Shown: piece by piece, positions 5,969-6,458 of the stretch | Layout of the letters: every line of letters starts with the position of its first letter | How positions within the stretch are numbered: the stretch's first letter is position 1 | Assembly (NCBI GenBank): GCA_028288775.1 | Contig: JAQGHP010000183.1 | Span: 1 to 37,251 of the forward strand | Source: Phycisphaerales bacterium | GTDB lineage: Bacteria > Planctomycetota > Phycisphaerae > Tepidisphaerales > Tepidisphaeraceae | Direction: 5' to 3' | Length of the DNA: 37,251 nt | Translations under genes and position numbers: made by a program | The notes under the pieces: model-generated | Database searches by the model: none | Told to the model about the DNA's origin: nothing | Seen by the model: the letters and a program-made list of their open reading frames with translations, nothing else

Positions 5969-6050
5969 GTTTGCCAAGCTTACCCCGCGCTCGCACGCCG
6001 GTCCATTCATGCGGCAAGAAGAGGGAACGAGTTGCCCGACATTCGCCGCG

Positions 6051-6219
6051 ATGGGCAATATATCGTAAAGTTGCTAAAAAATGAAGATTTCTAGATAAAG
6101 TATTTGACAGCATTTAAAAACAATCGGTCCAAGAGCTTACGTGCTCTTATGGGGTGGTGTTAATTGCCCATCATTGCCCATGATTGCCCATGTTTTGGGG
6201 GGTGCCGTTTATGGGCAAT
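6051..6219. promoter_or_regulatory. Cluster of five ATTGCCCAT sites between divergent genes
   Basis: The 9-mer ATTGCCCAT occurs head-to-tail at 6163, 6173 and 6183, exactly 10 bp apart, which is close to one helical turn. It also occurs inverted (ATGGGCAAT) at 6211-6219 and 6051-6059. The 6051 copy overlaps a TATATT-like stretch reading toward the POTRA gene. The region lies between the minus-strand POTRA/zinc-ribbon operon and plus-strand gnd. Five copies of a 9-mer in 170 bp strongly suggests repeated binding sites for a DNA-binding protein, though a replication-type iteron or a simple repeat expansion is possible. The rest of the 5969-6458 gap is AT-rich around 6060-6125, and I see no gene in it. 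Confidence 0.6.
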
Positions 6220-6458
6220 CGCGCATTTTCGCGAGCCCAGTTTTGGGCACTTATGCGCGGCGGGGGTTGTCGAACGGGCTGAATCAACCCTTTGAGCCGG
6301 CGGGTTGTTTCATCCCGTTGCGGCGGCGCGGAAAAACCCGACAATCGCCCGCCTCGGGTGGCGGGATGGCGTCTTGTCCTTCTACACTCTGCGATGATCC
6401 CGTTTTTGCGGGTGGATGCGTTCTTATCAACAAGCTCTCTTTTGGGAAGGTTCATACC

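Follow-up and report, generated by a model that had tools for sequence, protein, structure and literature searches.

Upstream of the gnd gene (+ strand, from 6459) in a planctomycete genome, five copies of the motif ATTGCCCAT raise the question of whether they form a switch for gnd, for the divergently transcribed gene of a POTRA-domain protein (- strand, gene-caller start ~5968), or for neither. The window analyzed, a contiguous stretch of 37,251 nucleotides, contains these five exact sites clustered in 6051-6219 as originally predicted, three on the + strand at 10-bp steps and two inverted (table 1). No other exact copy occurs in the 37-kb window, where chance would give ~0.29 for the whole and 0.001 per 169 bp. 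When up to one mismatch is allowed, the window-wide total is close to expectation (9 vs. 7.7) and thus unremarkable, so that the signal lies in the clustering of the motif and not in its count. Moreover, 6182-6191 recurs perfectly in inverted orientation at 6211-6220 (10 bp, 19-nt spacer), and 6050-6059 and 6163-6172 form a further such pair.

Table 1. Features of the window between the POTRA-domain gene and gnd
Feature	Position	Strand	Evidence and remarks
Element copy, whole (probable window member of the dispersed family)	6052-6220	+	Covariance model R1
ATTGCCCAT site 1	6051-6059	-	Remaining piece of the 5' GGGCAAT arm; exact match and alignments
Box A TGGGCAATATATCGTAAAGTTGC (family consensus GGGGCAATTTATCATAATATTGCC)	6052-6074	+	Alignments; R2 match mainly here
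Degenerate core	6075-6160	+	~22 nt shorter than in most copies; barely above shuffled sequence
ATTGCCCAT site 2	6163-6171	+	Unit 1 of the 3' array; exact match
ATTGCCCAT site 3	6173-6181	+	Unit 2 of the 3' array; exact match
ATTGCCCAT site 4	6183-6191	+	Unit 3 of the 3' array and left arm of the terminal hairpin; exact match
ATTGCCCAT site 5	6211-6219	-	Inverted copy, forming the right side of the terminal hairpin; ATGGGCAA(T/C) at this position in other copies
Separate conserved block upstream of gnd, outside the element (probable actual control region of gnd)	6307-6417	+	84% identity over 111 bp to the gnd upstream region of the sister species

The genome that contains the window (G000, a 6.29-Mb draft in 801 contigs, 89% complete) carries many such clusters. 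The pattern ATTGCCCATNATTGCCCAT, with up to three mismatches, matched 59 times, on 29 contigs; its reversed form, run as a control, had no match. The paired motif was found at 29 places including the window, that is, 28 beyond it, and a DNA search with a single copy returned largely the same places. We then rely on a covariance model, R1, whose training set comprised 23 other copies, the window copy being left out. This model recovered 30 matches with E-values below 1e-8 in the genome, the window copy among them, and aligned to the latter end to end (6052-6220 over model positions 1-191, 60.4 bits, E = 6.8e-13). A model restricted to the core, R2, matched 6052-6139 (E = 1.2e-4), mostly through box A. 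None of the 29 copies analyzed overlaps a called gene, and the flanking genes are unrelated between loci; their orientations are +/- at seven loci, +/+ at seven, -/- at six, and -/+ at six, with one neighbor missing at the remaining three (genes were called with a home-made, codon-usage based program trained on window genes, whose single calls may err). The orientation of the element relative to genes is random, and seven copies stand between convergent genes. The picture of many short, noncoding copies between genes, at ~30 places, is that of a MITE-type element.

Full copies share a common order: CCCATTGCCCATcGCGCGCC; two to four GGGGCAAT/ATGGGCAAT units; box A (GGGGCAATTTATCATAATATTGCC); the core; ATTGCCCAT units at 10-bp steps; ~20 nt; and ATGGGCAATG. 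The element measures ~200-250 bp, more with flanks. Most full copies end in terminal inverted repeats, CATTGCCCAT on the left and ATGGGCAATG on the right, one end is missing or altered in some copies, and the two arms are able to pair with each other in a long stem (foldback). The core is AT-richer than its surroundings (45% GC vs. 63% for the window). In 23 copies, box A and the array are 132-135 nt apart, a near-constant core length that has to be read in the light of copies partly picked by similarity. Divergence between copies amounts to ~5% in the array and its sites versus ~29% in the core, the former value appearing lowered because the choice of copies started from the repeat motif; in these alignments, the repeated sites come out as the best preserved part of the element. 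A coding core was considered and rejected, as its conservation lacks a 3-base periodicity. Several copies (L014, L017, L018, L021, L022, and L027) are flanked by a REP-like hairpin (TGCCACAGGTC...GACCTGTGGCA type).

Compared with this layout, the window copy is incomplete: the rest of its 5' arm is gone, together with part of the core, which spans 111 nt versus ~133 nt in the family and reaches a plain alignment score of 2, against a shuffle maximum of 1. Given the R1 and R2 matches on the one hand and this shuffle-level alignment of the core on the other, we consider that box A, the array, and the inverted copy have been kept while the core has worn away; the five sites are perfect although the core is near-random. 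Judging from the sequence, the five sites upstream of gnd are probably one worn copy of a dispersed, probably mobile repeat, and this copy is probably a relic, or is retained only for its array of binding sites, with no particular function at gnd.

An indication of mobility comes from locus L023, where the same convergent genes are 389 bp apart in the window genome and ~47 bp apart in the sister species (G001, C40). In the junction alignment, the element and its immediate flanks appear as extra sequence, inside a terminator-like inverted repeat. Insertion in the window genome is a simpler reading than deletion in the sister, a direction that we infer from this one locus at which an empty orthologous site was obtained, loss in the sister being the alternative. 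In a second comparison, synteny was broken at the locus. The L023 alignment offers no clean junction, and no target-site duplication could be defined in it. Among IS200-like transposase loci, the sole type searched, no mobilizing gene linked to the element was found: the fetched flanks of four PF01797 loci contain neither ATTGCCC nor GGGCAAT, and an IS200-like transposase was rejected as the driver for want of this linkage.

The sister species has ATTGCCC arrays at several loci and also a second set of similarly laid-out loci, one of them upstream of its gnd, whose arrays are of TTTTCYCAC. On the TTTTCYCAC loci, R1 gave two weak matches (C557, E = 0.015; C246, E = 3.2), and R2 detected a single motif-switched copy, at a borderline value (L145, E = 0.09). 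The element upstream of the sister's gnd has no R1 match at E <= 10, and its core does not align with that of the gnd-upstream element in the window. Sequence similarities suggest common descent of the TTTTCYCAC and ATTGCCCAT sets with a concerted change of motif, and the gnd-upstream elements of the two species may be independent. A broader proposal, which we advance only tentatively, is that these planctomycetes harbor a class of mobile foldback elements in which several helically phased recognition sites make up each inverted arm, the site sequence having been switched in concert, in every repeat and both arms, between sisters (ATTGCCCAT vs. TTTTCYCAC) with box A and the layout held constant. 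Such a switch would imply coevolution with a binding protein or a transposase and, if it holds, the family would offer a naturally occurring trace of how a DNA-binding protein and its sites have changed jointly. A long inverted repeat, GTAGGGTCCGCTTTAGCGGAC..., lies just upstream of the sister's gnd (L117, reverse strand) and is absent from the window.

Outside these two species, R1 had no match at E <= 0.01 among the 24 further genomes of the order that were searched, R2 had none in 400 kb sampled from a related complete genome (G013), and plasmid and phage records gave no match to the element. The exact triple pattern, searched in 84,980 species genomes, matched only the sister MAG, the Phycisphaerales genome RYN_428, to which G001 corresponds by a contig match shared at identical coordinates. 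By these matches, the family is confined to a single genus in the genomes covered. Searches of the literature, on both the motif and planctomycete repeats of this kind, yielded nothing about the family; small mobile elements of planctomycetes seem little described.

On the basis of some 30 intergenic copies with a common layout, the low divergence of the sites, one filled/empty pair, and the range of a single genus, we give somewhat better than an even chance to the cluster being a worn copy of a new, genus-restricted, dispersed, noncoding, MITE-like foldback element whose phased sites are bound by a putative protein. This trans-acting protein would bind the helically phased sites in both inverted arms and mobilize or maintain the element, and such binding would keep the sites while the core drifts. 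Counting against this reading, a near-constant core length at ~29% divergence exceeds the needs of a purely selfish relic, the four IS200-like loci lack the motif, no target-site duplication is definable, and the empty site is a single one.

Bacterial MITEs such as Correia/NEMIS, ERIC, and RUP are small, noncoding, and mainly intergenic, with inverted terminal repeats, filled and empty sites, and strong foldback (Delihas review, PMC2229807). The present element resembles them in size, intergenic placement, inverted ends, foldback, an empty site, and an AT content above that of the host genome, but its arms consist of several 9-bp sites at 10-bp steps, it is somewhat longer (~200-250 bp), and neither TA ends nor a target-site duplication were seen. 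REPINs, which are linked to RAYT transposases, are likewise inverted sites scattered between genes and capable of forming hairpins, and presumably coevolve with a protein that acts in trans (PMC3116915). Our element shares with them its dispersed, intergenic, inverted, and hairpin-capable sites; in contrast, it is longer, has a separate core, and shows no IS200-like transposase near its motif (four loci).

Among the alternatives, we regard as unlikely, though still deserving attention, that the repeat is a small RNA gene present in multiple copies, in which box A would be the promoter (an extended -10-like TRTCATAAT), two or three hairpins would form in the core, and the 3' end would consist of ATTGCCC-rich single strands and the terminal hairpin. 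The fixed spacing between box A and the array (132-135 nt in 23 copies) agrees with such a gene, as do a weak sigma-70-like match at box A of L020 and the hairpin TTGCG/TGCAA, which is 97% paired and has 36 G-U versus 0 A-C cells, pairing thus being favored on the + strand. However, this strand asymmetry is absent from two other helices, and the proposed helices together are 93.7% paired versus 93.2% in shuffles (33 of 500 shuffles being as high), with little compensation and almost no covariation added by RNAalifold. In the window copy, from which most of the core is gone, neither a promoter nor a terminator was called. Rfam had no match in the window at gathering scores; in five copies, with hits admitted up to E = 1, every match fell well short of its gathering score. 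The RNA reading retains some probability because, with pairing of the whole structure close to that of shuffles, the hairpin TTGCG/TGCAA is nonetheless strand-specific.

It is improbable that the arrays are sites for a host nucleoid or chromosome-organizing protein, or for a global regulator, multiplied by duplication and retained for the benefit of binding. Five exact, helically phased sites in 169 bp, their perfection in a copy with a decayed core, and sister loci with the same layout and a different motif, as if the recognition sequence had changed in concert, would suit such a protein, but such a role would require neither box A nor foldback arms nor a core of fixed length, and one orthologous site is empty.

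A specific operator of gnd and/or the divergent POTRA gene is the least credible reading, a very slim chance even though the cluster lies in a divergent intergenic gap and the sister likewise has a phased array, of a different motif, upstream of gnd: ~30 copies with unrelated neighbors exist elsewhere, seven of them between convergent genes, the block conserved upstream of gnd is 6307-6417 and not the cluster, and the neighborhood of the sister's gnd showed no POTRA gene. The original prediction had suggested that the cluster may control gnd, the POTRA operon, or both. This suggestion is unsupported because the same element occupies ~30 unrelated gaps, in all four orientations, because the conserved block is located elsewhere, the element ending ~90 bp short of it, and because the L023 copy is absent from the orthologous site of the sister. 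The pattern, the placement of copies, and the R1 matches all lack specificity for the gnd/POTRA promoter region. An occurrence of ATTGCCCAT clusters unrelated to particular genes was to speak against the prediction, and the genome scan largely gave this result; the cluster is probably not a switch for gnd. The notion of a multi-site protein-binding array, in turn, is still plausible, in view of the ~5% versus ~29% divergence of array and core and of perfect sites beside a decayed core. A tempting regulatory reading of gnd is thereby removed and replaced by a repeat family, which could pass for operators at some 30 places of the genome.

Lambda CII sites (TTGC-N6-TTGC) and P2 cox boxes are helically phased direct-repeat operators, with which the array shares TTGC at 10-bp steps; in contrast to them, it belongs to a repeat family at ~30 loci and not to one regulatory region. 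A very similar array is present on a viral contig (L109:2428-2452, - strand), where ATTGCCCATTATTGCCCATTATTGCCC lies in an apparent regulatory gap of a phage-like region. It was rejected as a family member and judged an analog, probably an unrelated operator.

Other phased or dispersed repeats were encountered in these genomes. CGGTCA, repeated three times at ~10-bp steps, is another dispersed intergenic repeat of the window genome and the sister (L006:2178-2203, L179:908-933, L098:1371-1395, and L100), and TGCACGA, three times at 10-bp steps, is a further phased motif (L002:1196-1222). In G013, two opposed arrays of three CACGAAT units at 10-bp steps make up a compact foldback (L164:3549-3626). 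Finally, a stretch of ~90 bp in the sister (L141:1255-1346) matches five places in the window genome at 78-84% identity and represents a different dispersed repeat.
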